Shown one piece after another: positions 47-11,301 of a DNA stretch of 11,301 bases. This DNA is from Synechococcales cyanobacterium PMM_0073. GTDB taxonomy: Bacteria; Cyanobacteriota; Cyanobacteriia; Elainellales; Elainellaceae. The notes below the pieces were generated by a model. That model had not been told where the DNA came from, made no database searches, and worked only from the letters and a program-made list of their open reading frames with translations. Position numbers and translations under genes: made by a program. The first letter of the stretch is position 1. Every line of letters begins with the position of its first letter. The DNA lies in NCBI GenBank assembly GCA_949127695.1, contig CASBQH010000198.1, positions 1 through 11,301 on the forward strand, in the 5' to 3' direction.

Positions 47-2130
47 TGGGGAGAGTTTACTTTGGCGGCGGCCTGCCTTCGAGCCCGCGTGGCCCAGAAC
101 ATCCCCATGAGCAGAATGGCAATGCCGAGCCACTGTTCTGGAAGCACCGAAGAGCCCAGCGTCACCACGCCAATAATCGCCTCACCGGGCACGGGGGTAC
201 AGCAGCCCGCCAAGCTGTAGAGCAAGCCCTCGACGCCGTTAATTGGCGAGGACTTGGCGGTGGGGCGATGCGGCGCAGGAGTAATGGCCGCACCGCTAGC
301 CGGATGCAGCGCTTCTGGCTTTTCTTCTTTGGTGCCAATCGGCTGGCGGGCTTTAATCGCTTCTCGGAGCCGGTTGATCGCCAAATTCAGCGTGATTTCG
401 CCATAGCCAATCGCCGCCAGCAGATCGTCGGGGGTCTGGTAGTTGCAGCGTTCAGCCGCCGCCTGCATGGGTTCTGACTTCAGCAGCGCCTCAAAGCCCC
501 GCTTGCCCAGCTCTTTTTCCAGCATTTCGCGACCGCGCAAAATATTGTCGTCGCGGTGAAAATGCTTGTACCACTGCCGAATCCGGTTGCGCGCTCCCGG
601 CGTCACGGTAAAGTTGAGCCAGTCTAGGCTGGGATGGGCATTTTTTTGGGTAATAATTTCGACGATATCGCCGTTTTTCAAAGGCCGATCTAGCGTTACT
701 ATGCGGGCATTCACTCTAGCTCCGGCACAGCGGTTGCCCACCTGCGTATGGATGCGATAGGCAAAATCCACCGGAGTTGCGCCCTGTGCCAGGGCAATCA
801 CATCGCCATTCGGCGTGAACACATAGACATCATCATCAAACAGGTTGCCCTTAACGCTCTCCAGATATTCGTGAGCATCTTTGAGATCGTTCTGCCAGTC
901 GAGCAGCTGCCTCAGCCAGGTAAATTTTTCGTCATCCGCCGTCAGCTTGGCGTTGCTGCCGCCGCTTTCCTTATATTTCCAGTGAGCCGCAATCCCATAT
1001 TCAGCCACATGATGCATTTCTAAGGTGCGAATCTGCACCTCTAAAGGGCGTCCCGTATTGCCAATCACGATCGTATGCAATGACTGATAGCGGTTGGGCT
1101 TGGGCAGGCCAATATAGTCTTTGAACCGCCCCGGCACTGGACGAAAGGCATCATGCACCACGGCCAGCGCCCGGTAGCATTCGTCGTTGGTCTGGACAAT
1201 CAGCCGCACCGCCGCAATGTCATAGATCTCGTCAAAGCTTTTTTGCTGACGCTGCATTTTCTCATAGATGCCATACAGGTGCTTCGGGCGTCCGCTGATG
1301 TCATAGCACTGAATGCCCAGCTGATCGAGCCGCTCTTGCAGGGTGGCGGCGACGCTGGCGAGGCGGGCTTCACGGTCGCTGCGCTTGTCGGCAATCAGCT
1401 GGCGAATATCTTGGTAGGCTTCTGGCTCCAGATACTTAAAGGCCAGATCTTCTAATTCCCACTTAAATTGACCGATCCCCAGCCGATTCGCCAGCGGCGC
1501 AAAGATTTCGCGGGTTTCTAGGGCAATGCTGCGCCGCTTGGCGTCCGGCAGATGCTCCAGGGTTCGCATGTTATGCAGCCGATCGGCCAGCTTCACCACA
1601 ATCACCCGCACGTCCTGCGCCATCGCCAAGAACATGCGGCGGAAGTTTTCGGCCAGTCGCTCAGTTTTGCTGGAGAAATTGAACTTGGAGAGCTTGGTGA
1701 CGGCCTCAACTAGCCGCCGCACCTCTGCGCCAAACCGCTGCTCAATTTCTTCAGCGGTGACTTCGGTATCTTCAATCACGTCATGCAAAAAGCCTGCTGC
1801 AATCATGGTGGGACTGCCGCCCAACTCCCGCAGCAGCCCCGCCACCGCCACCGGATGGGCAATGTAGGGTTCGCCCGATGCCCGCTTTTGGCCTTTATGC
1901 AGCGCATAGGCAAAGGTAAAAGCATCGCAAACCAGGCGGGTTTCTGAAGAGCCTTCGAGAATACCGTTCTCTGGAGCCGACTGTAGGGTTGCCGCCGCTG
2001 CCCCAGATCCTATGGCCTCAGATCCTATGGCCTCAGATCCTGCCACCAATAAGGGCTGCTGCTCCCGCAAACAGTCTTGCAGCCAGTCTGGAACCGTAAT
2101 GTCAGTTGGGATTAAAGTTGCTGAGTTCAT
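43..2130 (-). CDS. rsh: RelA/SpoT-family (p)ppGpp synthetase/hydrolase, C-terminus replaced
   Basis: This bifunctional RSH enzyme makes and degrades the stringent-response alarmone (p)ppGpp in the cytoplasm. The HD hydrolase domain spans about residues 70-220, with His92, the His116-Asp117 pair (FLHDVIEDT) and LADRLHN at 181-187. The synthetase domain spans about 270-390, with RPKHLYGIYEKM (281-292), the GLPKPNRYQSLHT loop (341-353) and EVQIRT (364-369). A TGS domain lies at about 434-496 (VYVFTPNGD). The Cys-containing segment AGCCTPVPGE starts at 641, but after GVVT (654-657) the usual remainder of that domain and the ACT domain are absent. They are replaced by about 38 residues with one hydrophobic segment (663-680) and a basic tail, resembling the end of an EamA/DMT transporter. 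Cyanobacterial RSH proteins usually have about 740-780 residues; this has 695. The ATG at 2130 gives a family-like N-terminus, but no strong ribosome-binding site is seen. The N-domain identification is secure. Confidence 0.95.
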   Translation of the reverse strand: MNSATLIPTDITVPDWLQDCLREQQPLLVAGSEAIGSEAIGSGAAAATLQSAPENGILEGSSETRLVCDAFTFAYALHKGQKRASGEPYIAHPVAVAGLLRELGGSPTMIAAGFLHDVIEDTEVTAEEIEQRFGAEVRRLVEAVTKLSKFNFSSKTERLAENFRRMFLAMAQDVRVIVVKLADRLHNMRTLEHLPDAKRRSIALETREIFAPLANRLGIGQFKWELEDLAFKYLEPEAYQDIRQLIADKRSDREARLASVAATLQERLDQLGIQCYDISGRPKHLYGIYEKMQRQQKSFDEIYDIAAVRLIVQTNDECYRALAVVHDAFRPVPGRFKDYIGLPKPNRYQSLHTIVIGNTGRPLEVQIRTLEMHHVAEYGIAAHWKYKESGGSNAKLTADDEKFTWLRQLLDWQNDLKDAHEYLESVKGNLFDDDVYVFTPNGDVIALAQGATPVDFAYRIHTQVGNRCAGARVNARIVTLDRPLKNGDIVEIITQKNAHPSLDWLNFTVTPGARNRIRQWYKHFHRDDNILRGREMLEKELGKRGFEALLKSEPMQAAAERCNYQTPDDLLAAIGYGEITLNLAINRLREAIKARQPIGTKEEKPEALHPASGAAITPAPHRPTAKSSPINGVEGLLYSLAGCCTPVPGEAIIGVVTLGSSVLPEQWLGIAILLMGMFWATRARRQAAAKVNSPQ
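2004..2040. repeat. 15-bp in-frame tandem repeat in the RSH N-terminus
   Basis: The unit CAGATCCTATGGCCT occurs twice in full (2004-2018 and 2019-2033) and partly a third time (from 2034). On the minus strand it encodes the repeated GSEAI residues 32-41 in the linker ahead of the HD domain. The unit length is a multiple of three, so copy-number change keeps the frame. Confidence 0.9.
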
Positions 2131-2482
2131 GCCATCAAGCCCAGAATTTGGAGTGACTGATAAAGATGCGTGAGTAATGCAGTTGGCTAAAGTCTACAGC
2201 ATCGATCGAGCGGGATCTTGCCTCTGAGATAGTTCAGTCGGCGTCATTCAAGTCAGATCGTGAATTCTAGCCCAGCCCTAGTTTGGGAACTTAACTAGGA
2301 CTGACAGCGCGCAAAGTAAGGAATTGGGAGAAATCAAAGATCCCCGGCGCTCGATCACAGTCTGCAAGCGGCAAGTCTATATTCTTAACACTACTTTAAC
2401 CCGAACTGCCCAAACCCGAACCTGCCAAATTCTGGGGCGCTATGCTGGATCCAGCAGATCAATTTGTTGTAACCACAATCTG
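2131..2482. other. Divergent intergenic region between rsh and patD
   Basis: These 352 bases separate the diverging rsh and patD genes and must hold both promoters, but no convincing -35/-10 pair was found. A TTG-initiated frame continuous with patD begins at 2324, but its extra 53 residues look non-coding. Visible elements are a degenerate direct repeat at 2400-2429 and TTGTTGTAACCACAA (TTGT-N7-ACAA) a few bases upstream of the patD start. No RNA gene was recognised. Confidence 0.5.
2400..2429. repeat. Degenerate 15-bp tandem repeat upstream of patD
   Basis: CCCGAACTGCCCAAA (2400-2414) is followed directly by CCCGAACCTGCCAAA (2415-2429), with 12 of 15 positions identical. It lies 54-83 bases before the patD ATG, so it could be a paired protein-binding site. 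That role is inference. Confidence 0.5.
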
Positions 2483-2848
2483 ATGAACGCATCGGCATAT
2501 CAGCCCATCTATCAGCAGGCTCAGGCTTTGCTCCAGCGCTTGCAGCAGGCTAATTTGAGCGATGCAGAGCTGCTGGCCAGCTTGGCTCAAGCCCAGCAGC
2601 AGCTTCAGCAAGGCTTATCGCCAGATAGCGCCAGCGACTTGGGCCGCCAGCTTCAGCCGCTGCAAATTGAGATCAACAAACAGATGCGACTGCTCGAAAC
2701 CGATGCAATTTTTTTAAAAGCGGCAAGGCAACCCGCCACGGCTCACCAGCGTCGCCAGCAGATCCAAGTCAGAGTCGGGCTGCTGCTGCGCTACTCTGAG
2801 GCCATTTTGGCGCTCTGTGCTGCTGATCTAGGGGAACCGCCAGCCTGA
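2483..2848 (+). CDS. patD: PatD-like heterocyst frequency control protein
   Basis: This 121-residue soluble protein is rich in Gln, Leu and Ala and looks almost wholly helical. It matches the cyanobacterial PatD family as I remember it, notably in the segment LLETDAIFLKAARQPATAHQRRQQI at about residues 67-91 followed by a helix ending LLLRYSEAILAL. In Anabaena, PatD influences heterocyst frequency, and the family is also present in cyanobacteria that make no heterocysts, so it is not proof of differentiation. The ATG at 2483 is preferred over the TTG at 2324 because family similarity begins there. No strong Shine-Dalgarno precedes it. The gene points the same way as psbX, 127 bases downstream. 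The family call is from memory of conserved patterns. Confidence 0.8.
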   Translation: MNASAYQPIYQQAQALLQRLQQANLSDAELLASLAQAQQQLQQGLSPDSASDLGRQLQPLQIEINKQMRLLETDAIFLKAARQPATAHQRRQQIQVRVGLLLRYSEAILALCAADLGEPPA

Positions 2849-2933
2849 TTGCCTGCCCAGAATCATCTTGGCAAAGCTTCCCAAATGCGCCCTCAAATCG
2901 ATAATATGTTAAGCAGAAGCTACGGCAGCTCTC

Positions 2934-2962
2934 AATTCCGCACAAATTCCGCATAATCCGCA
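2934..2962 (+). promoter_or_regulatory. Helically phased (A)ATTCCGCA repeats before psbX
   Basis: AATTCCGCA occurs at 2934-2942 and 2945-2953, and the shortened AATCCGCA at 2955-2962. The copies start 11 and 10 bases apart, about one DNA turn, and end 13 bases before the psbX start codon. They could be binding sites for a regulator or an element of the 5' leader. The repeats are directly visible. The function is unknown. Confidence 0.5.
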
Positions 2963-2975
2963 AAGGTAAAATTTC

Positions 2976-3095
2976 ATGACTCCTTCTTTAGCAAACTTTC
3001 TCTATAGCATTCTGGCTGGCATCTTCATCGTGGTGATTCCAGTGATCGGCGCGCTGGTTTTCATCAGCCAAAAGGACAAAATTCAGCGCGGTTAA
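2976..3095 (+). CDS. psbX: Photosystem II protein PsbX
   Basis: This gene encodes 39 residues, the usual size for PsbX, a single-helix thylakoid subunit at the periphery of photosystem II near cytochrome b559. The protein begins MTPSLANFLYSILAG, crosses the membrane with a hydrophobic stretch at about residues 8-30, and ends with the hallmark FISQKDKIQRG. AAGG at 2963-2966 is a modest ribosome-binding site nine bases before the ATG. The gene is followed in the same direction by ycf66. It is easily missed because of its length, but start, stop, length and both family signatures all agree. Confidence 0.95.
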   Translation: MTPSLANFLYSILAGIFIVVIPVIGALVFISQKDKIQRG

Positions 3096-3118
3096 TGGCG
3101 CTGAGATAAATTACCCAT

Positions 3119-3169
3119 AGCTGCGGCTGCTTGATGCAGGGACTCCGCCCGACTCAGGCAGCTTTAATT
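3119..3169 (+). terminator. Possible weak terminator or attenuator between psbX and ycf66
   Basis: AGCTGC (3119-3124) can pair with GCAGCT (3158-3163), followed by TTAATTT. The stem is short and the loop long, although inner CTGC/GCAG pairing could stabilise it. It could partly separate the highly expressed small gene from ycf66. Confidence 0.25.
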
Positions 3170-3215
3170 TGCTGGCAAACTCGCTAACATAGGGACATAG
3201 AAACGGAGAACTGCA

Positions 3216-3962
3216 ATGCTGAACTGGAGCCTTGGACTGGGCGGGATCTTAGGCATCACGCTGATGATGGCAGGCGTAGGCTTATATTTTTTGCGGACGC
3301 TGCGCCCCAACTTGGCCAGAGATCACGATATCGTCTTTGCGGCGGTGGCTCTGCTCTGCGGCGGCATTCTGCTGTTTCAAAGCTGGCGACTGGATCCAAT
3401 TTTGCAGTTCGCGCAGTTCCTCTCCATTGGCTCGGCGGTCTGGTTTGCCTACGAAACCGTTCGCCTGCGCGGCATTACCACAGAGCAGGCCAAGCGCTCA
3501 ACGCCGATGGTGGACGATGAGCGTCCGGTCAGCCGGGTGTATCGAGCTGAGCTAGATGAGCTAACACCGCTCGACGAGCAGCGCAACACCACCCGCCGGA
3601 TTCGCAGCAGCCGAGACGGACGCGACGACTATCGCGACTCTGGCCGAGATGGCTACGACGAGCGGGGACGCGATTATCGCGGCGAGCGAGCCGCCAACGA
3701 CACCGACGCCCGCCGCAGCTCACGTCCGCTGCCGCCTGAGCGCGATAGCCGTGGCAACTGGGATGAGCCAGAAGCCAATCGCGGTATGAGAGAATCGATT
3801 CGAGACGACAGCTTTTCGCCGCGCCGCCCCAGCAGCAATCGCCCTGCCGCATCGCCGAGAAAGCGCGGCAGCGAAGCCGACTATGTAGACTATCGCCCCG
3901 TTGATCTGCCAGAAGGCTCAGACCGACCCGCCTCAGACCGACCCAGAGACGACTGGCAATAG
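3216..3962 (+). CDS. ycf66: Ycf66 family membrane protein with long Arg/Asp-rich tail
   Basis: This 248-residue protein belongs to the Ycf66 family, found in cyanobacteria and some plastid genomes, whose function is not established. Three hydrophobic segments lie at about residues 6-26, 38-56 and 62-82. The typical signature runs through RPNLARDHDIVFAAVALLCG and SWRLDPILQFAQF (residues 30-69). After about residue 88 the protein becomes a hydrophilic, probably disordered tail of some 160 residues dominated by Arg, Asp, Ser and Pro, with repeats such as SDRPASDRP near the end. The start is supported by GGAG at 3205-3208, seven bases before the ATG. A strong terminator follows the stop. The conserved part is the membrane domain; the tail is variable in such proteins. 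Confidence 0.9.
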   Translation: MLNWSLGLGGILGITLMMAGVGLYFLRTLRPNLARDHDIVFAAVALLCGGILLFQSWRLDPILQFAQFLSIGSAVWFAYETVRLRGITTEQAKRSTPMVDDERPVSRVYRAELDELTPLDEQRNTTRRIRSSRDGRDDYRDSGRDGYDERGRDYRGERAANDTDARRSSRPLPPERDSRGNWDEPEANRGMRESIRDDSFSPRRPSSNRPAASPRKRGSEADYVDYRPVDLPEGSDRPASDRPRDDWQ

Positions 3963-3989
3963 CTCTTCACTCTTCACTAAAGCTTTTAG

Positions 3990-4036
3990 ATCAGCTTTGA
4001 GCCTCGCCCTACGGCAAACTTAAAGCTGATTTTTTT
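3990..4036 (+). terminator. Rho-independent-type terminator after ycf66
   Basis: ATCAGCTTT (3990-3998) pairs perfectly with AAAGCTGAT (4022-4030) across a 23-base loop. Seven T residues at 4030-4036 follow, and a second run of T lies shortly after. It sits 27 bases past the ycf66 stop and closes the patD-psbX-ycf66 side. Confidence 0.75.
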
Positions 4037-4237
4037 GGTTTTTTTGGGGCGTCAATGCATCCGACGCGACAATATTCCAACTTTATTCGTATTTATAGTA
4101 TTGACAGGCAGGGGTTGTTGCAGGCTGTAATAGAGTTAGCAGCTTGTTTAAAAGTTCAGAAGGCCGATTTTGAACTTGCTCACCCAGCTCGCTCAGTCTG
4201 CTTGCTCCACACACCCTTAATCAAGCCAAAGTTCAGT

Positions 4238-5365
4238 ATGTATAAATTCTCTTCTCCTCACAAATTTTTCCGCCAAACGGCTGCCGCCTCGCTGGCGCTG
4301 ACCCTCCTGAACGCCGCTTCACCCGTGGAACTGTTAAACCTGGCCAAGCTGGGGCAACCCGCTAGCAGCGCTCTGGCTCAGCAAGATGCCGAAGAAGCCG
4401 TGAACGTCCGCGTCTATACAGCAGCCAGTCCGGCGGTCGTTTCTATTGAAGCGGGCGACGGCAGCGGCAGCGGCATTATTATTAGCCCTGATGGCCTGAT
4501 CTTGACCAATGCCCATGTGGTCAGCGGCCAGACTACAGTCAAGGTGATTTTGGCAGATGGCAAGAAGCTGGAGGGCGACGTGGTTGCCTTTGGCCGAGCT
4601 GATCTCGATTTGGCAGCTGTGCAGGTGCGAGATGCTCAAAATCTGCCGACGATCACGATTGCGCCCTTAGGCTCAGTGGCAGTGGGGCAGCGAGCTTTTG
4701 CCATTGGCAACCCGTTTGGCCAGTTTCAGGGCACTTTTACCACTGGCATTGTCAGCCGAATTGACCCAGAGCGCGGGCTGATTCAGACTGATACGGCCAT
4801 TAACCCCGGCAATTCAGGTGGCCCGCTCTTGAATAACCAAGGCGAGCTAATTGGCGTCAACAGCGCCATTTTTGCGCCCAGAGGCGCGTCCGGCAATATC
4901 GGCATTGGCTTTGCGATTAATATTGATCAAGTCGAGCCGTTTCTGGTTTCGGTGCGGGATGGCTCAGCGCCGCGCACGGCCCAGCAAACCTCGCCGCTCT
5001 TGGGCGGACAGCGGGCAGAGCGAATTGCCCTGAATCGCCCGGTAGAAGGGCAGCTCACCCAGGCCAGCGGCTTGCATCCGGCAGACCGCAGCTACTTCAA
5101 CGCCTACAATTTTGAAGGTAAGGCAGGGCAGCAGATCGAAATTGACATGACCAGCAGCGAAATTGATCCCTATCTGATTTTGCTGGCTCCAGATGGCCAA
5201 GACCTGGCGCATGACGATGATGGCGGCGGTGGCGCTAACGCCCGACTGGTGATGGCGCTGCCAGTAGATGGCACTTACACCGTGCTGGCTAATACTTACC
5301 GAGTGGGCGAAACTGGGCATTACAACCTGCGCCTCAGCCTGAAAAGCTCTCAGCTCCAGCGGTAG
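4238..5365 (+). CDS. Secreted trypsin-like serine protease with PPC domain (HtrA-like, no PDZ)
   Basis: With the ATG at 4238 this is a 375-residue exported protease. A signal peptide is visible: basic residues near 9-12, a hydrophobic core at about 14-26 and a likely cleavage after ALA at 45-47. The S1C/HtrA-type catalytic domain spans about 55-240, with His93 in TNAHVVSG, Asp124 in ADLDLAAV and Ser193 in NPGNSGGPLL. Where HtrA/Deg proteins carry PDZ domains, this one has a linker (242-265) and then a pre-peptidase C-terminal (PPC) beta-sandwich domain at about 268-369, with the acidic-glycine cluster AHDDDGGGGANARL. PPC domains usually occur in secreted peptidases. A periplasmic or extracellular role is therefore likely, and the substrate is unknown. 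The frame is open upstream to 4055, but those 61 residues lack any recognisable feature and would hide the signal peptide. No strong promoter was found in 4037-4237. Confidence 0.9.
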   Translation: MYKFSSPHKFFRQTAAASLALTLLNAASPVELLNLAKLGQPASSALAQQDAEEAVNVRVYTAASPAVVSIEAGDGSGSGIIISPDGLILTNAHVVSGQTTVKVILADGKKLEGDVVAFGRADLDLAAVQVRDAQNLPTITIAPLGSVAVGQRAFAIGNPFGQFQGTFTTGIVSRIDPERGLIQTDTAINPGNSGGPLLNNQGELIGVNSAIFAPRGASGNIGIGFAINIDQVEPFLVSVRDGSAPRTAQQTSPLLGGQRAERIALNRPVEGQLTQASGLHPADRSYFNAYNFEGKAGQQIEIDMTSSEIDPYLILLAPDGQDLAHDDDGGGGANARLVMALPVDGTYTVLANTYRVGETGHYNLRLSLKSSQLQR

Positions 5366-5387
5366 GCTGGGTTAAGCTATCAAAACC

Positions 5388-5426
5388 AAAGAGCGCGTCC
5401 AGACTCATGCTCTGGACGCGCTCTTT
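5388..5426. terminator. Strong bidirectional hairpin between convergent genes
   Basis: AAAGAGCGCGTCCAGA (5388-5403) and TCTGGACGCGCTCTTT (5411-5426) form a perfect 16-bp stem with a seven-base loop. It lies between the stop codons of the converging protease and DUF2996 genes. T runs are short on the plus side (TTT) and better on the minus side (CTTTGGTTTTG), so it probably ends both transcripts. Confidence 0.8.
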
Positions 5427-5452
5427 GAGTGAGTTGGCTAGCCAATAGGCGG

Positions 5453-5923
5453 CTAATTCATCACCAGCCATTTCTGGCCGTTCAGCCTTTGTAGCGTGTA
5501 GAGCAGCAGCAAATCGAGGTTAACTTTACGTTCGTCAATCATGAACGACTCGATCATCGTCGGCTCTGCGCCACTGTCGGCACAGGTGTAGAACTTCGCA
5601 GCCTGCAAATCTTCTTTGGAGAAGATGATCGTAAACTGTCGTCCACCCTGAATCTGGCCAATCACCTGCCAGCATTCCTCGTCGCCCAGCGCCGCAATGG
5701 GCAGTCGGCGCTTGACAAACTGGAGTTCGGTTTCTGGAATGCCTGCTTTCGCCAGCATCTGCTTTAGACCGGGCAGAAAATCCTGGCTGATAAATTCAGT
5801 AAATGGCTTGTCTTCTAAAGCAGGCGGCTTTTCTTTTTTGGCAGCTTTTTTTTCACTGACCTCGGCTGCGGGTGCTTTAGCCGCTGCTTCGGGGGTAGAA
5901 TCGGGCGCAGTTTCGTCTGGCAT
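5453..5923 (-). CDS. DUF2996 family protein
   Basis: This 156-residue soluble protein has a low-complexity, Ala/Lys/Glu-rich N-terminal stretch (1-38). The conserved DUF2996 domain follows, from KPFTEFISQDFLPGLK to the end. Diagnostic pieces are ECWQVIGQIQGGRQFTI (about 83-99) and the closing ESFMIDERKVNLDLL and LYTLQRLNGQKW. The family is typical of cyanobacteria and plants. From memory, the plant homologue has been linked to the NAD(P)H dehydrogenase-like complex subunit NdhV; I could not confirm that here. The gene lies 91 bases downstream of the MoaD-like gene on the same strand, with a short hairpin in the gap, so it may be the last gene of a thrC transcript or have its own promoter. It ends just before the bidirectional hairpin. 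Confidence 0.85.
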   Translation of the reverse strand: MPDETAPDSTPEAAAKAPAAEVSEKKAAKKEKPPALEDKPFTEFISQDFLPGLKQMLAKAGIPETELQFVKRRLPIAALGDEECWQVIGQIQGGRQFTIIFSKEDLQAAKFYTCADSGAEPTMIESFMIDERKVNLDLLLLYTLQRLNGQKWLVMN

Positions 5924-5975
5924 GGGCGACCTAGCTCTTTAAGTGAAGGGTGATACTCAAACTGTAAGACCTGCC

Positions 5976-6000
5976 GCAGAATTGTTCAAGCGAATTCTGC
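5976..6000 (-). terminator. Short hairpin downstream of the MoaD-like gene
   Basis: GCAGAATT (5976-5983) pairs with AATTCTGC (5993-6000) around a nine-base loop, 14 bases past the MoaD-like stop. There is no T run on the minus strand after it. It is at best a weak terminator or an RNA-processing element before the DUF2996 gene. Confidence 0.3.
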
Positions 6001-6014
6001 AATCCCAGCTCTGG

Positions 6015-6290
6015 CTAGCCGCCCGCTACTGCCGGAACGATGCTGACCTCATCGCCAGCGTTTAAGGCGGTATTTGGCCCATCTAGGAAGCGGATATCTT
6101 CGCTGTTGACATAAAAATTGATGAACCGCCGCAGGTTGCCCTGCTCGTCGCAAAGCCGCGCTTTAATGCCCGGAAAATCCTGTTCGAGTGTATTCAGGAG
6201 TTCTAGGATGCTGCCGCCATCGCATTCGATGCTGGCCTGATCGCGGGTGAACTTTTGCAGCGGCGTCGGAATGAGTACTTTGACAGACAT
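6015..6290 (-). CDS. MoaD/ThiS-family ubiquitin-like sulfur carrier
   Basis: This 91-residue protein has the beta-grasp pattern of the MoaD/ThiS family and ends exactly in Gly-Gly (IVPAVAGG), the tail that is adenylated and thiocarboxylated in sulfur carriers. Internal signatures are [23 protein letters not shown] (about 40-62) and GDEVSIVP near the end. It follows thrC by 69 bases on the same strand, so the two are probably co-transcribed. Pairing with a PLP enzyme recalls the CysO-CysM and HcyS-type systems, where a carrier protein donates sulfur for amino-acid synthesis. That role is inference. A classical function in molybdopterin synthesis is less favoured because no moa genes are nearby. 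The distance to typical MoaD sequences was not measured. Confidence 0.85.
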
Positions 6291-6359
6291 GGCTCAAAGA
6301 AAAAATAGTTGAACGAAAAAGCGAGTTGAACGAGGCTAGTCAAGATTTTGCCGCCGAAC

Positions 6360-7676
6360 TTAAACCAGCACCTGCTGCCACTCTAGGCGATCGAGGGTTT
6401 GGGCACGCTCCCAGGCGCGCTCAAAGGCATCTAGCTTCGGTTCAATGGTCAGCGGTTCGCCGATATAGCCTTGGACGGCCTCCTGCGTCTTCAGGCCATT
6501 GCCGGTGATGTAGACCACGGTGGTTTCGTCAGGGCTAATTTTGCCAGCTTCCACCAGCTTCTTTAGGACAGCCACGGTGGTGCCGCCAGCGGTTTCGGTG
6601 AAGATCCCTTCGGTCTCGGCCAGCAGTTTGATGCCTGCAATGATTTCTTGATCATTTACGGACTCAATGTTGCCGTTGGTTTTATGGGCGATATCGAGCG
6701 CATAGACGCCATCAGCTGGGTTGCCAATTGCAATGGATTTGGCGATGGTGTTGGGCTTGACGGGCGAGATAAAGTCGCGGTTCTCGCGGAACGCCTGGGC
6801 AATTGGCGAACAGCCCTCGGCCTGAGCGCCGCTAAAGCGCACTGGCTTTTCTGCCACCAGTCCAACCTTAATAAATTCTTGAAAGCCCTTGTGGATCTTG
6901 GTAAACAGTGAGCCAGAGGCCAGCGGTGCCACCACATGATCGGGCAGCTCCCAGCCAAGTTGCTCAGCCACCTCGTAGCCCAGCGTCTTGGAACCCTCAG
7001 AGTAATAGGGGCGCAGGTTGATATTTACAAAGCCCCAGCCGTGGGTGTTGGCCACCTCAGAGCAGAGACGATTGACCTGATCATAGTTGCCATGCACTGA
7101 CATCACGGTGGGCGAATAGATCAAGGTTCCCAGCACTTTGCCCGCTTCGAGATCAGAGGGAATAAAAACGCAGCATTCCAGTCCGGCATGGGCAGCAATG
7201 GCGGCGGTTGAGTTGGCCAAGTTGCCGGTGCTGGCGCAGGATACGGTGGTGAAGCCGAGTTCTTTGGCCCGAGTCAGTGCCACCGAAACCACCCGATCTT
7301 TGAAGCTGAGGGTGGGCATGTTCACCGCATCGTTTTTGATGTAAAGCTTTTTCAGCCCCAGCTGCCGCGCCAGTCGGTTGGCTCGCAGCAGCGGCGTCAT
7401 CCCGGTTCCCACATCAATTGGCGTATCGGTTTCGACGGGCAAGAAGGGGCGATAGCGCCAGATTGAGTGAGGGCCTGCCTGAATGCTGGCGCGGGTGACG
7501 GTTCGGCTCAGGGCGTCATAGTCATAGACGACTTCCAGTGGCCCAAAGCATTCTTCGCAGACATGGGTGGCTTTGGCTTCGTACTCCGCGCCGCATTCTT
7601 TGCACTTGAGTCCGGTAAAGGTGGCAGCAGAGGTGCGGGCACAGGTAGGTGCAATCTGGGAAATCGCTTGAGTCAT
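6360..7676 (-). CDS. thrC: Threonine synthase (PLP-dependent, with N-terminal zinc-ribbon-like Cys cluster)
   Basis: This 438-residue enzyme converts O-phosphohomoserine to threonine in the cytoplasm. Four cysteines in two CxxC pairs (Cys25, Cys28, Cys40, Cys43) form a probable zinc ribbon at the N-terminus, as in many cyanobacterial and archaeal threonine synthases. The PLP lysine is Lys126 in NMPTLSFKDR, followed by the substrate/cofactor loop SCASTGNLANS (146-156), ETAGGTT in the C-terminal half and the conserved TGNGLK near residue 391. Length is normal and no key residue is missing. A good promoter lies about 90-115 bases upstream (7764-7792), and AGGA lies about eight bases before the ATG. 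The gene is followed by the MoaD-like gene. The family assignment is strong; a shifted specificity, for example sulfhydrylation with the neighbouring carrier, cannot be excluded from sequence alone. Confidence 0.93.
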   Translation of the reverse strand: MTQAISQIAPTCARTSAATFTGLKCKECGAEYEAKATHVCEECFGPLEVVYDYDALSRTVTRASIQAGPHSIWRYRPFLPVETDTPIDVGTGMTPLLRANRLARQLGLKKLYIKNDAVNMPTLSFKDRVVSVALTRAKELGFTTVSCASTGNLANSTAAIAAHAGLECCVFIPSDLEAGKVLGTLIYSPTVMSVHGNYDQVNRLCSEVANTHGWGFVNINLRPYYSEGSKTLGYEVAEQLGWELPDHVVAPLASGSLFTKIHKGFQEFIKVGLVAEKPVRFSGAQAEGCSPIAQAFRENRDFISPVKPNTIAKSIAIGNPADGVYALDIAHKTNGNIESVNDQEIIAGIKLLAETEGIFTETAGGTTVAVLKKLVEAGKISPDETTVVYITGNGLKTQEAVQGYIGEPLTIEPKLDAFERAWERAQTLDRLEWQQVLV

Positions 7677-7763
7677 GGGTTCGTCCTGAGTTTGTCCTGG
7701 GTTTGCCTAAAGTTCGGTGGGGAGGTGCTTAGAGAATTAAGCATTTTTATCACTTGAGACTGA

Positions 7764-7792
7764 ATCGTATCACAGCTCAAAATCTGCGTCAA
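7764..7792 (-). promoter_or_regulatory. Predicted sigma-70-type promoter of thrC
   Basis: On the minus strand TTGACG (7792-7787) and TACGAT (7769-7764) are separated by exactly 17 bases. Each differs from the TTGACA/TATAAT consensus at one or two positions. The transcript would start near 7757, giving a leader of about 80 bases before thrC. Confidence 0.6.
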
Positions 7793-7797
7793 ACATA

Positions 7798-7816
7798 CCC
7801 GACAAAATTAGTCGGG
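7798..7816. promoter_or_regulatory. Palindrome upstream of the thrC promoter
   Basis: CCCGAC (7798-7803) and GTCGGG (7811-7816) form a perfect inverted repeat around AAAATTA. It lies five bases upstream of the thrC -35 box, within the divergent region shared with the DUF2237 gene, where an activator or repressor might bind. The regulator is unknown. Confidence 0.4.
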
Positions 7817-7891
7817 ATTGATCTGGGTCGGTTGTTTGGGGCTGTACTAAAATTTAAATAAGCTCTCCATCTGGATTCTGCCAATTGCGCT

Positions 7892-8299
7892 ATGGATAAT
7901 CCGACTTCACTTGATCCAATCCGCTCGCAGCCCTCTACTGAAAAAAATATCTTGGGCGAGCCGCTTGCCGCCTGCTCAACAGCGCCCATGACTGGGTTTT
8001 ACCGGAATGGCTGCTGCGAAACTGGCGCACAGGATCAGGGGGTGCATGTGGTTTGTGCTGAAGTAACCGCCGAGTTCTTGGCCTATACCAAAGCGCAGGG
8101 GAACGATCTGAGTACGCCGCATCCAGCCTATGGGTTTCCAGGTCTAAAACCGGGTGACTACTGGTGTCTCTGTGCGGCGCGCTGGCAAGAAGCCTTGGAT
8201 GACGGCGTTGCGCCGCGTGTCAAGCTGGCTGCCACCCATATCAGAGCGCTGGAATATCTCTCGCTGGATGACCTCAAGCAACATGCCGCAGAGTCATGA
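7892..8299 (+). CDS. DUF2237 family protein
   Basis: This 135-residue soluble protein matches the DUF2237 family over residues 22-132. NILGEPLAACS comes first, then MTGFYRNGCCETG, HVVCAEVTAEFLAYTKAQG, the nearly invariant NDLSTPHPAYGFPGLKPGD and WCLCAARWQEAL. Several conserved cysteines (about residues 30, 41, 42, 53 and 90-92) suggest metal binding or redox chemistry, but the function of the family is not established. The first 20 residues are variable and Ser/Pro-rich. The gene diverges from thrC and its stop is seven bases from the end of the minus-strand fragment described next. No strong ribosome-binding site is visible, but the ATG at 7892 is the only good start. Confidence 0.9.
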   Translation: MDNPTSLDPIRSQPSTEKNILGEPLAACSTAPMTGFYRNGCCETGAQDQGVHVVCAEVTAEFLAYTKAQGNDLSTPHPAYGFPGLKPGDYWCLCAARWQEALDDGVAPRVKLAATHIRALEYLSLDDLKQHAAES

Positions 8300-8305
8300 C
8301 TCTAT

Positions 8306-8452
8306 CTATCCAGGCCGATGCACAATTTCTTTGACGAGTCCCAGTCGGTCGCGGTCGATGCCAACCAGCCGGATACAGTCCTGGTTATGTTCAGCAAAGC
8401 AGGCTTCCAGGATGACTGTGGCCTGCTCAAAGCTAGTCCTGGGCTTAACCAT
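8306..8452 (-). pseudogene. Fragment resembling the C-terminal half of a Rubisco-small-subunit-like domain
   Basis: A 48-residue minus-strand frame starts at ATG 8452 and ends at TAG 8308-8306. It reads FEQATVILEACFAEH, then CIRLVGIDRDRLGLVKEI and finally VHRPG. This matches the pattern of the RbcS-like (SSUL) modules of CcmM and some Rubisco activases, in which VLxxLExCLxEHxGEYVRLIGID is followed by a closing Ile/His-Arg-Pro. A full module has about 85-90 residues, so the first half is absent. An in-frame TAG lies four codons before the ATG. A different upstream frame (about 8519-8444) encodes a helix-like stretch ending LAVLQHG that overlaps this ATG. A frameshifted remnant is therefore possible. 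It lies just beyond the putative attC site at 8504. The likeness is judged by eye, and the opposite-strand frame 8318-8509 is the competing reading. Confidence 0.4.
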
Positions 8453-8503
8453 GTTGTAGCACTGCTAGAAATTGGTGCGAAACCGCTTCAATCAAATAGT
8501 TCA

Positions 8504-8587
8504 AGCTAACGTTGCCCATCACCCGCCGCAGATCACCTTTGTAACATACCGACTGACGCTCAACGGTCGTTGTGCGCGTTGTTAGGC
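8504..8587 (-). other. Putative attC-type recombination site (cassette B end)
   Basis: Read on the minus strand, GCCTAAC (8587-8581, fits RYYYAAC) and GTTAGCT (8510-8504) bound an 84-base segment, a normal length for attC. The stop codon of the NTF2-like gene lies inside GCCTAAC, as is common for integron cassettes. Internal pairing is weak: GC, CA, AC and CCG blocks near both ends, plus a central CAACG/CGTTG hairpin. Confidence therefore rests mainly on the boundary logic shared with 10031-10115. Confidence 0.4.
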
Positions 8588-8965
8588 ACCGAGGCCGGAC
8601 GATGGAAGCAGGCAGACTTCCATGCCTTGAATCAAGCCGTGCTCAATGGTGAATCGATGACCAACATGCTCATCAGCAAGTATGGCTCCAGCCAAATCGT
8701 GAACGACTTGATGCACATCGACCAAAATCCGTCCGCCCTCCTCCAGGTGAAAGGCAACCGGCTCGACCTGTCCATTAATCTCGCTCCACTGCTCCGTCCA
8801 GTAAGCGCGGACTTCTTCAGATCCATGGACAAAACCGCCTTTGAACGCCCTGGGCCAGGCCACGTCTGGAGTCATGAGGGCGAGGGCGGCATCAATGTCA
8901 CGCGCGTTAAAGGCCGCATACGCTGTGCGTAGTAGCTCTATTTCTGGTGCAGGTTGATCTGGCAT
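8582..8965 (-). CDS. NTF2-like / SnoaL-like small protein
   Basis: This 127-residue protein has the cone-shaped NTF2-like fold pattern. The N-terminal helix LLRTAYAAFNARDIDAALALMTPDVAWP (about 11-38) is followed by FKGGFVHGSEEVRAYWTEQW and a run of beta strands ending in FTIEHGLIQGMEV. Members include SnoaL-type cyclases, isomerases and many ligand-binding or detoxifying proteins, so no reaction can be named. Its TAA stop falls within the core of the putative attC site. It diverges from the AraC-type gene with a gap of 128 bases, an arrangement often seen when a regulator controls its neighbour. No clear ribosome-binding site precedes the ATG. Confidence 0.8.
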   Translation of the reverse strand: MPDQPAPEIELLRTAYAAFNARDIDAALALMTPDVAWPRAFKGGFVHGSEEVRAYWTEQWSEINGQVEPVAFHLEEGGRILVDVHQVVHDLAGAILADEHVGHRFTIEHGLIQGMEVCLLPSSGLGA

Positions 8966-9093
8966 AGGAGGTAGGTGAAGGAGTAGACACCCCTACAATA
9001 GTCTTAGCCTCAACCTGCCGGCTCATCCAATTCTGCTAAAATTATTCTAATCCTGCTTGAGATGTGAAATCTTGACTGGATTAAAGCTCATCC

Positions 9094-9984
9094 ATGAACC
9101 ATGCACCCGACACACTTGATCTTACAAATCAGCAGGAAGCCGCGCGAGTGCTTCCACAATCGCCCCTAGTCGCTAGCTATCATACGGGATGGAAGGGATT
9201 AACCTTCACCCACTACTGCCATCCTCCCCACAAAACGGTGGAGCATTGCCTCCTACAACATTCACTGGTGATCACAGACTCCAAAAGTTGCTTCAAAGCA
9301 GAGCGTCATTTGGACGGCAAATTTAGCCGCTACGTCCACGGCAACGGTCGCGTAGATATTATCCCAGCATTTCTAAATCATTGGACAAACTGGGATCAGG
9401 AAGTCGAATTTTCGGTGATTGCGATTTGTCCGACATTGCTGAATCAAACTACTCAGGAATTGATGCAGCGTGAAATAGAGCTGATTCCACAGCTTTCAAT
9501 CGATGATCCGGTAATCCAGCAATTAGCCCTCGCGCTCAAGACGGAAATCCAAACGGGTTGTATGTCTGGCAGGTTATATGGCGAGTCATTGGGAACAGCG
9601 CTTGCCGCTCGTTTGGCGTGGAACTATGCCGTCAACAAACCTTCGCTGGAGTTCAAAGCCAACGGTTTACCCCAATCACAGTTGGAGCGAGTCATTGATT
9701 ACATGAAGGCGAATTTGACACAAGATTTATCGATTTTAGATCTGGCGACCCTGACTGGCATGAGTGAATCCCACTTTAGCCGAGGCTTCAAGCAATCAGT
9801 GGGAATTGCGCCCTATCAGTATTTGATCCGAGAACGTGTGGAACGAGCCAAGCAACTACTGAAACAGCAAGCCGTCTCAATTAGCGACATTGCTCTGGAT
9901 TGTGGCTTTGCAAATCAAACTCATTTAACAAAAGTCTTCCGTCAGATGACAGGGATGACACCCAAAGCTTATCAGAAGCGATGA
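9094..9984 (+). CDS. AraC/XylS-family transcriptional regulator
   Basis: This 296-residue regulator has a typical C-terminal AraC DNA-binding domain at about residues 195-296. The first helix-turn-helix lies around LSILDLATLTGMSESHFSRG (212-231), followed by the linker GIAPYQYLIRERVERAKQLL. The second helix-turn-helix is SISDIALDCGFANQTHLTKV, followed by FRQMTGMTPKAYQKR. The N-terminal 190 residues are a probable ligand-sensing region with no domain I can name. It diverges from the NTF2-like gene and is flanked by two attC-like sites, so it may be carried in the same mobile cassette in reverse orientation. AT content appears higher than in rsh or thrC, consistent with acquisition. Likely targets are itself and the divergent gene; this is inference. 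No confident promoter was assigned in 8966-9093. Confidence 0.92.
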   Translation: MNHAPDTLDLTNQQEAARVLPQSPLVASYHTGWKGLTFTHYCHPPHKTVEHCLLQHSLVITDSKSCFKAERHLDGKFSRYVHGNGRVDIIPAFLNHWTNWDQEVEFSVIAICPTLLNQTTQELMQREIELIPQLSIDDPVIQQLALALKTEIQTGCMSGRLYGESLGTALAARLAWNYAVNKPSLEFKANGLPQSQLERVIDYMKANLTQDLSILDLATLTGMSESHFSRGFKQSVGIAPYQYLIRERVERAKQLLKQQAVSISDIALDCGFANQTHLTKVFRQMTGMTPKAYQKR

Positions 9985-10030
9985 TCCAAAGTGAATTTTG
10001 GGGTCACAGATTACGCACTGCAAGATGTAA

Positions 10031-10115
10031 GCCTAACGATTAAGATAAGCGGTGGCCGATGAGCTTGGCAACCCAACCGAGACTCTCGACCATCCGCTTC
10101 ATCGACTTGTTAGCT
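10031..10115 (-). other. Putative attC site downstream of the nucleotidyltransferase gene
   Basis: GCCTAAC (10031-10037) and GTTAGCT (10109-10115) bound 85 bases with a long imperfect palindrome. GAT, AAGCGG and TGG (10044-10055) pair with CCA (10090-10092), CCGCTT (10094-10099) and ATC (10101-10103). This leaves two unpaired bases, T10093 and C10100, on one arm only. A bulged one-sided stem between RYYYAAC/GTTRRRY-like cores is the defining architecture of integron attC sites. The side carrying the bulges and the GTTAGGC core indicate a minus orientation, placing it as the attC of the nucleotidyltransferase cassette, 15 bases past that gene's stop. Confidence 0.6.
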
Positions 10116-10130
10116 GGCTGTTGATAGGCT

Positions 10131-11012
10131 TTAAGGTGAGTCACTGACAGGCAACTTCCACTTCGGATAAAGTCGGTTGAACGTTTCACGCTGCTGCTTG
10201 AGGTCAACTTGCGGCAAGTGCTTCTCTACAAGGTCGAACGTTTCCTCCGAGAGTTGTCGTAACTCATGGGTTCCGCCTGCGGCATCAGATTGAAAAACAC
10301 GCTCCAACCGCGCAAAAAACTCAGGCGGTTTGATGTTCATTTCTTCAACAAAGTAACGTGTCCACTTGAAACCGGGATGATAAATACGGTTTACCCCAAA
10401 CAGCAGGTTGAGAAGCCAGCGCACAATGGTGCAGTTGTTTTCGTACAGCATCGGAATCTCAAGGCGTTCAGTCAGTATTTGTTGACCATCGAACGGGCGG
10501 AATTTCAGATGCTTCTGAACCATCGCCACAGCCAGATCTTCAGGATAAGGAGAAAGTCGGGTTTGCCAATGTTTGATAATGTCTTCGCCGTAAAGAACAA
10601 TCGCGCGTTGAAGATGAGATGCTGTGGCTTGCTTCTCAAACAAGAGTCCGGTTTGCGACACATCGTAGTGCTCAACAACATCAATCACGATGTTGTCCAT
10701 CGTATCGCGCGCCCAATGCCCCGCTTCGACTTTCATTCCGTATATGTAGAACTGCTCCAACCACGCCTGTTTCGCTTCCCCATACGGCTCAATTTCCCAC
10801 CCCTTGACACCAACACTTTGTGCTGTGGCTTGTAATTCTTCGACAGACGGCAGTTGTGACCAGATAAAGGCTAACTCAAGGTCAGAATACTGATCTGAGA
10901 TACCTAATGCTGCCGAGCCAAATACAAAACACGCTTCTACTTTGGGGTTAGCAGTGAAAGCATGAGCGATTTTGTGAGCCAACGAAATCCGCCATACGCT
11001 GTGTTCAGTCAT
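10131..11012 (-). CDS. Nucleotidyltransferase-fold protein (antibiotic/minor nucleotidyltransferase-like)
   Basis: This 293-residue protein has the polymerase-beta-type nucleotidyltransferase motif near its N-terminus. FVFGSAALGISDQYSDLEL carries Gly32-Ser33 and then Asp44-x-Glu46, so the second metal ligand is Glu rather than the usual Asp. The remainder (about 110-290) is helical, with KWTRYFVEEMN and ENNCTIVRWLLN resembling the helical part of DUF4037-like and aminoglycoside or lincosamide nucleotidyltransferase relatives. Such enzymes transfer a nucleotide to small molecules or macromolecules. Neither substrate nor resistance can be inferred. GGAGGA lies 14 bases before the ATG, an unusually long gap. 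The gene ends 15 bases before an attC-like site, and a core-like GTTAGCC lies 45 bases upstream of its start, so it looks like one complete cassette. Confidence 0.75.
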   Translation of the reverse strand: MTEHSVWRISLAHKIAHAFTANPKVEACFVFGSAALGISDQYSDLELAFIWSQLPSVEELQATAQSVGVKGWEIEPYGEAKQAWLEQFYIYGMKVEAGHWARDTMDNIVIDVVEHYDVSQTGLLFEKQATASHLQRAIVLYGEDIIKHWQTRLSPYPEDLAVAMVQKHLKFRPFDGQQILTERLEIPMLYENNCTIVRWLLNLLFGVNRIYHPGFKWTRYFVEEMNIKPPEFFARLERVFQSDAAGGTHELRQLSEETFDLVEKHLPQVDLKQQRETFNRLYPKWKLPVSDSP

Positions 11013-11056
11013 GTTGAGAATATAAATCCTCCATCGAAATAATGCAGCGCTCAGCA

Positions 11057-11073
11057 GGCTAACTTCTTTTTAG
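11057..11073 (-). other. Cassette boundary core resembling the end of an attI site
   Basis: On the minus strand CTAAAAAGAAGTTAGCC (11073-11057) matches 14 of 17 positions of the cassette-proximal end of class 1 attI1 as I remember it (CTAAAACAAAGTTAGGC). GTTAGCC fits the GTTRRRY core except for one position. No attC partner core was found within 140 bases upstream, which favours attI over another attC. The match is short and could be chance. Confidence 0.4.
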
Positions 11074-11076
11074 AGA

Positions 11077-11172
11077 GAATCTTTCCTCAGATCCACCCAA
11101 ACGAGATGGATCGGCAGAAACTTTCCGCATATTACGCCGGCTAGGGTGGATCTGAGGAAACTTTCCGTATAT
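11077..11172. repeat. 40-bp-period direct repeats combined with a 17-bp perfect inverted repeat
   Basis: GAAACTTTCC-like decamers start at 11077 (GAATCTTTCC), 11117 and 11157, exactly 40 bases apart. The last two extend to GAAACTTTCCG(C/T)ATAT, and each is preceded by TGGATC (11107, 11147). Overlaid on this, TTTCCTCAGATCCACCC (11082-11098) and GGGTGGATCTGAGGAAA (11144-11160) are perfect inverted repeats 45 bases apart. The block sits next to the attI-like core, where integrase-binding repeats would be expected. It could also be a miniature inverted-repeat remnant or an operator. From 11173 to the window end nothing further was recognised. Confidence 0.7.
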
Positions 11173-11301
11173 CTTCAGATTTAGAGAAAACTGCAAGTAT
11201 CATCGAATACAGATTCATCCTCAGCTTGCCTGTTCACCGAAAGCAATCTTGCTCAACAGCTTCCTGGGTGGTTAAAAGATCAACAAACGTAAATATTCTT
11301 C

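Follow-up and report, generated by a model that had tools for sequence, protein, structure and literature searches.

An attI-proximal cassette array in a cyanobacterial chromosome, probably left by an integron that lost its intI

Sedentary chromosomal integrons, such as those of Vibrio and Xanthomonas, are built from an integrase gene (intI), an attI site and an array of gene cassettes. Does an 11,301-nt contig of Synechococcales cyanobacterium PMM_0073 carry such a system, and where would its integrase be? The contig (CASBQH010000198.1, or C198; its entire length is called the window below) belongs to a 3.6-Mb draft genome of 529 contigs that is 77.75% complete. An initial annotation, made from the sequence alone, proposed an integron-type cassette array near one contig end. 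Our analysis supports this proposal and refines it by adding an attI site, an apparent loss of intI and earlier reports of integrons in Cyanobacteria: the window very probably holds the attI-proximal end of a cyanobacterial chromosomal integron whose own intI is gone. None of the observations that the initial annotation had named as speaking against it was made (no attC model match at either site, no other copies in the genome, or orthologous genomes carrying these genes colinearly without site variation).

The attC sites and their relatives beside integrase genes

Minus-strand GTTAG cores at 11063 (GTTAGCC), 10037 (GTTAGGC) and 8510 (GTTAGCT) delimit segments of 1026 bp (11062→10037) and 1527 bp (10036→8510), exactly as first described, and the boundary bases follow the cassette rule as claimed. 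The segment 10036→8510 opens with TTAGGC and has the R'' box GCCTAAC, a perfect pair; the segment 11062→10037 opens with TTAGCC and has R'' AGCTAAC, with one mismatch of seven. All three had been listed as core-like sites; two of them proved to be attC, whereas the third, at 11063, belongs to attI (Table 1). The 10115→10031 site folds into a long hairpin with unpaired bases chiefly on one arm.

Table 1. Features of the array and its proximal flank, in window coordinates
Feature	Position	Strand	Basis and remarks
Expected intI start region	11183..11301	+	Start expected near 11240, judging from the L027 and L073 spacing; no readable IntI
Putative attI / intI-upstream region	11064..11182	-	Crossover G(11063)|T(11062); nhmmer, alignment to Phormidesmis L073
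Cassette A	10037..11062	-	1026 bp; core positions, attC by R1 and R2
Cassette A gene, DUF4037 (PF13228), 293 aa	10131..11012	-	Nucleotidyltransferase-like N-terminus
attC of cassette A	10115→10031	-	R'' AGCTAAC 10115-10109, R' GTTAGGC 10037-10031; R1, R2, fold
Cassette B	8510..10036	-	1527 bp; core positions, attC by R1 and R2
AraC-family regulator, cassette B	9094..9984	+	Antisense to the cassette, divergent from the NTF2-like gene
SnoaL_2/NTF2-like protein, cassette B, 127 aa	8582..8965	-	TAA stop inside attC R'' (GCCTAAC)
attC of cassette B, distal array end	8587→8504	-	R'' GCCTAAC 8587-8581, R' GTTAGCT 8510-8504; R1, R2

Two covariance models were used to score these sites. The first, R1, draws on 42 sites, all from other genomes, of which 16 lie in loci bearing an integron integrase (IntI) and 26 in loci found through the window's own site. 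These are the 42 of 50 BLAST seeds taken into a MAFFT alignment (A1); two from L132 and one each from L122, L126 and L133 were dropped as odd or cut, and two from L083 and one from L031 as near-duplicates. The second model, R2, comprises 89 sites (R1 matches at E <= 1e-6) from 39 of the 44 IntI loci with R1 matches, retaining one labeled as Gracilibacteria (L042) and leaving out five labeled as Chloroflexota (L088, L089, L099, L100 and L107; 23-36 bits). Since R2 was built on IntI-bearing loci alone, circularity is reduced, and the 8587→8504 site never served as a query for training rows. Both sites were matched by both models, which answers the model check suggested at the outset. R1 scored 10115→10031 at 84.8 bits (E 4e-23) and 8587→8504 at 35.1 bits (E 2e-8), the next best match in the window reaching 11.5; R2 gave 73.7 bits (E 1e-18), 44.5 bits (E 2e-10) and a next best of 8.9. 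The core at 11063 was matched by neither model, nor were further GTTAG motifs, one within the DUF4037 gene at 10875 and three outside the array at 5239, 3565 and 3188. The window thus holds two sites with conserved core boxes and a hairpin, and these exceed chance expectation.

The stem covaries. In A1, both partners varied in 12 of 19 pairs, with a covariation value of 0.294 compared with 0.121 in shuffled and at most 0.096 in slid alignments; in the structure-fitted alignment A2, 14 of 19 did so (0.423, compared with 0.131 and at most 0.078, respectively). A strict home-made attC finder (boxes plus a 6-bp inner stem) was dropped after it returned 48 matches in 94 loci, many on both strands, versus 16 in reversed sequences. 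Rfam yielded nothing relevant in the window at gathering or relaxed thresholds, and the pattern GYCTAACN{30,60}GTTAGRC, whose spacer is shorter than in these sites, had no matches in the genome.

Related sites occur elsewhere in the genome and beside integrase genes of other genomes. Counting the window's two, R1 found 12 matches at E < 0.002, spread over 10 contigs, and a further one at E 0.04; BLAST with 10115→10031 recovered an 80% identical copy on C51 and a 76% copy on C98. The 8587→8504 site has stretches of 67-73 nt with 79-85% identity in the IntI-bearing loci L075, L031 and L087. As a side observation, the C51 site (C51:11564-12016, L014) lies between a gene that appears HEPN-like by eye, running off the contig, and a transposase that appears IS5-like by eye. 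Across the best 80 of 526 IntI loci found in public genomes, R1 gave 112 matches in 44 loci at E <= 0.1. All but one of these lie on the strand opposite intI, the exception overlapping a stronger match on the other strand, and 111 of 112 are situated 5' of intI, with L075 holding the one exception, even though 340 kb of DNA was searched 5' of intI versus 646 kb 3' of it. All 44 positive loci are among the 55 with at least 1500 bp 5' of intI. This strand and position relative to intI is the canonical integron layout.

Could these palindromes instead have nothing to do with integrons and represent a repeat or terminator family dispersed in cyanobacteria? The type is certainly widespread: of 145 genomes of the class, R1 finds it at E <= 1e-4 in 109, this one counted; the genomes were drawn from a larger group, and at most 30 candidates were scored in each, so that per-genome counts are lower bounds. 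Some genomes also hold many matches and no IntI match at E <= 1e-60, as in the highly complete G010, G003 and G005 (at least 25, 25 and 28 attC matches). A repeat family would account for neither the one-sided placement and orientation relative to intI nor the R'/R'' boxes with their covarying stem, the gene stops inside or just ahead of the sites, or the weak R1 matches (23-36 bits) in the IntI loci of five Chloroflexota. We consider this explanation largely refuted and barely credible. Within the order, this genome counted, 19 of 36 genomes have a BLAST match to 10115→10031 at E <= 0.001, and 17 of 36 have an IntI above cut-off.

The attI region and the fate of intI

The third core is the predicted attI crossover point rather than an attC. 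The adjoining DNA carries 26-nt direct repeats at 11107-11132 and 11147-11172, and alignment with the Phormidesmis locus (L073) shows the same core and repeats, continuing there into intI. When 11057-11182 was compared with the 80 IntI loci by nhmmer, 13 of 14 first-round matches (7 loci) lay no more than 500 nt 5' of the intI match, and after one iteration 118 of 123 did so (42 loci). By this homology an attI lies beside the first cassette. The five remaining second-round matches fall in three loci, where attI-like regions stand away from the intI that recruited the locus (L035:1983-2070, L049:5361-5438 and L075:14953-15106); fragments of a broken intI follow those of L049 and L035, and none is clear after that of L075. 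These are probably second platforms that lost intI and kept attI. A regular expression for attI was abandoned, recovering just 4 of 80 loci and missing clear cases, as the cores are not strictly GTTRRRY. The inverted repeat at 11077-11165 had been considered as an insertion-sequence end and was likewise dropped, being part of the repeats 5' of intI.

This region argues against a second explanation, in which a cluster of attC cassettes was inserted off target at a secondary chromosomal site, away from any attI, by an integrase encoded elsewhere. Such an origin would be compatible with the IntI on another contig of the assembly, with attC matches on 10 contigs and with the ordinary genes beside the array. 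The proximal flank is not arbitrary DNA, however, as 11057-11182 shows homology with the attI/intI-upstream DNA found in cyanobacterial integrons. Because a recognizable attI is kept, loss of intI is favored over off-target insertion, which we regard as very unlikely.

Given a proximal attI and an array on the minus strand, intI is expected on the plus strand near 11240. No IntI N-terminus can be read in 11183-11301, where the best tblastn match (E 0.011, residues 52-98) falls over the repeats, and no IntI match occurs anywhere on the window contig, so that no intact intI adjoins attI up to the contig end at 11301. Window positions 11143-11299 are 89% identical to C76:3964-4120, and the 225 nt remaining between this copy and the end of its contig contain no intI. 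The C76 segment (C76:3964-4345, L196) adjoins a polA-like gene and continues into DNA resembling the 3' flank of the intI on C298, with no intI between. We infer from this arrangement that intI may have been deleted before the attI-side segment was copied. The initial annotation had advised a search for an IntI-family recombinase beyond the contig. Genome-wide, one match does exceed the family cut-off (394 bits versus 265); it lies on C298 (C298:1-971, L005), 5'-truncated with its N-terminal part missing and its last 16 residues in another frame. Its closest named kin are from Nodosilinea, Myxacorys, Leptolyngbyaceae and similar cyanobacteria, which indicates kinship of this integrase alone, not of the host. 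The frame preceding the IntI resembles, by eye, the end of a serine recombinase.

A complete, working integron with an intact intI past the contig end is the remaining alternative. The window stops only about 60 nt beyond the expected intI start, integrons are frequent assembly break points, and the assembly is incomplete (77.75%). The unreadable N-terminus, the C76 copy with no intI following it and the truncation of the only IntI match in the assembly all argue otherwise, and we judge this alternative unlikely. Confidence in the full statement that the window holds an attI-proximal array whose intI was lost is lowered a little, since the loss is indicated by those approximately 60 nt and the C76 copy.

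Read from its platform outward, the region comprises attI, cassette A (DUF4037, nucleotidyltransferase-like), attC, cassette B (NTF2-like with a divergent AraC gene), a second attC and then ordinary chromosome (DUF2237). By analogy with known integrons, this anatomy suggests that the cassettes would have been captured through IntI-type recombination of the folded attC bottom strand with attI. The intI gene, which would have diverged from the array on the plus strand, would now be degenerate or deleted, and the array would be fixed unless an IntI acts in trans.

Cassette genes and chromosomal setting

The cargo families first proposed (nucleotidyltransferase-like, NTF2-like and AraC-type) were recovered as a DUF4037 protein, a SnoaL_2/NTF2-like protein and an AraC-family regulator. 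The cassette A gene begins 50 nt inside the cassette, counted from the attI crossover, and ends 15 nt short of attC. Its protein matches Polbeta (PF18765) at 25.4 bits, below the cut-off of 26.9, and a search of solved structures gave no convincing match, the best being a histidine decarboxylase chain at E 0.006, with a lincosamide nucleotidyltransferase scoring E 0.3. Judging from its family, its likeliest role would be to transfer nucleotidyl groups to a small molecule or a protein. The best 120 of 170 relatives, its own entry excluded, show 76-93% identity, and those listed with an organism name come from cyanobacteria. Distribution is patchy: a search of 388 genomes of the class at E <= 1e-40 recovered the gene in 13, this genome counted, and in none of four genus mates. 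At five of 14 other places (L199, L200, L201, L206 and L210, in four genomes) an attC follows 22-24 nt past the aligned coding region (the equivalent distance in the window is 16 nt), and at three of these five another attC lies 45-46 nt ahead of the start. The same gene is thus found as a cassette elsewhere, for cassette A only.

In cassette B, the AraC and NTF2-like genes lie 128 bp apart. The layout suggests that an antisense regulator in a cassette would carry its own control; the promoter-like matches in the cassette are consensus matches only. From the families involved, the likeliest role of this cassette would be an AraC-controlled small enzyme or binding protein. Among the 120 matches listed for each, with own and near-own copies set aside, NTF2-like relatives are 81-92% identical and AraC relatives 84-93%. 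The longest contigs with NTF2-like and with AraC relatives are often of equal size (e.g. 2054, 2138, 5122 and 29506), a hint of a conserved pair. A defense-family search with the three cargo proteins gave one match, at 13.7 bits. On five plasmid stretches with relatives of the cassette genes (L212-L216), no R1 match falls at any gene 3' end; the lone R1 match, on L214, scores 28.7 bits (R2 15.8 bits, partial) and lies 589 nt 5' of the gene. One of these stretches (L213, from plasmid2 of Fischerella sp. NIES-4106) carries a shortened cassette A relative directly after an annotated rifampin ADP-ribosyl transferase, with no R1 match.

Besides the array, the window encodes relA/spoT-like, trypsin-like, DUF2996, threonine synthase and DUF2237 genes. 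Positions 416-8293 are colinear in pieces, at 73-95% identity, with a 16-kb stretch of the genus mate G010, and the array therefore sits on a chromosomal contig. Colinearity with G010 runs as far as DUF2237, past which G010 lacks the array, and its 16-kb stretch has no attC match; in the genus mates G011 and G013 the match is restricted to the surroundings of DUF2237. Of the comparison with relatives first proposed, the part concerning related attC sites was borne out by their wide distribution, whereas a clean empty site was not found, although G010 lacks the array past DUF2237. A 48-aa reading frame lies on the minus strand within 8300-8504.

A number of points weigh against an intI-less integron as set out here. 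The contig ends at 11301, so that the loss of intI is deduced from an unreadable start and the C76 copy and not seen. The attC evidence is not wholly independent of the window: the R1 rows were all chosen by BLAST with the C51 site, itself found with the window's site; the 26 rows from loci found by that site tie the training to the window; and R2 rows were located through R1. A measure of further pair types in A2 failed to beat the shuffles (163/500), and 8587→8504 folds poorly by energy alone. For the cargo, nine of the 14 other places with the cassette A gene have no R1 match at the gene 3' end (L211 among them is a merely 34% identical relative, and two are partial genes), and re-searching five of the nine with R2 found none. 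An AraC gene antisense to attC is unusual for a cassette; both cassette B genes are common, with 3515 NTF2-like and 761 AraC relatives at the limits used; no second place with an attC at the gene end was found for cassette B, including on plasmid stretches L214-L216 with NTF2-like relatives. At the distal edge, no clean empty site was found, and the 205 nt that separate DUF2237 from the last attC (8300-8504) have no relative in the loci compared or the plasmid collection. In G010 an alpha/beta hydrolase sits 22 nt past DUF2237. In the PMM_0073 assembly only its first approximately 40 residues are matched, at the end of contig C93, and a second match, on C529, is 25% identical.

Relation to known integrons

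Like sedentary chromosomal integrons, the window has an attI crossover of the form G|TT and attC sites in which extrahelical bases accompany the R''/L''/L'/R' boxes; its cassettes measure approximately 1-1.5 kb, and the array diverges from the place of intI. It differs in having only two cassettes and no recognizable intI at the platform, and its attC family is cyanobacterial, with a conserved central region. Clusters of attC sites lacking integron integrases (CALINs) are defined as two or more attC sites spaced by less than 4 kb and lacking a nearby IntI (PMC9668308, PMC9024848), and the window, with attC sites 1.5 kb apart and no IntI match on the contig, fits this definition. Unlike a cluster formed by off-target insertion, it keeps a recognizable attI, which points to intI loss. 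PMC8618304 relays a proposal that integrase-less clusters arise from off-target insertion, intI loss or rearrangement; among these origins the window is best read as intI loss, and it provides a concrete case in which attI is retained and intI apparently gone.

Integrons in Cyanobacteria are already known. They are listed in PMC8618304 and PMC9668308, intI genes in the phylum are reported in PMC2426708, and a Cyanobacteria attC covariance model was made in PMC8352920 (Commun Biol 2021), again for structured attC sites shared within the phylum; the window's attC sites and that set are probably of the same family. The cited integron papers otherwise appear to mention Cyanobacteria only in passing, and PMC9024848 does not name them, at least in its main text. 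Against this background the window shows how a cyanobacterial integron is built, with its repeat-bearing attI, its attC sites and its cassette geometry. The breadth of the attC type across the class is less expected and most worth following, suggesting that Cyanobacteria may acquire genes by integron-type capture much more commonly than an emphasis on Proteobacteria implies. Tentatively, the Cyanobacteriia might have a cassette economy common to the whole class and based on attC and attI families of their own: most genomes would carry dispersed attC cassettes, and platforms that lack intI and keep attI would persist as docking sites, still usable by an IntI from another platform or another cell. 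We hold this possibility to be less likely than not. In the single-contig genome G159, the listed attC matches are partly clustered and partly far apart.

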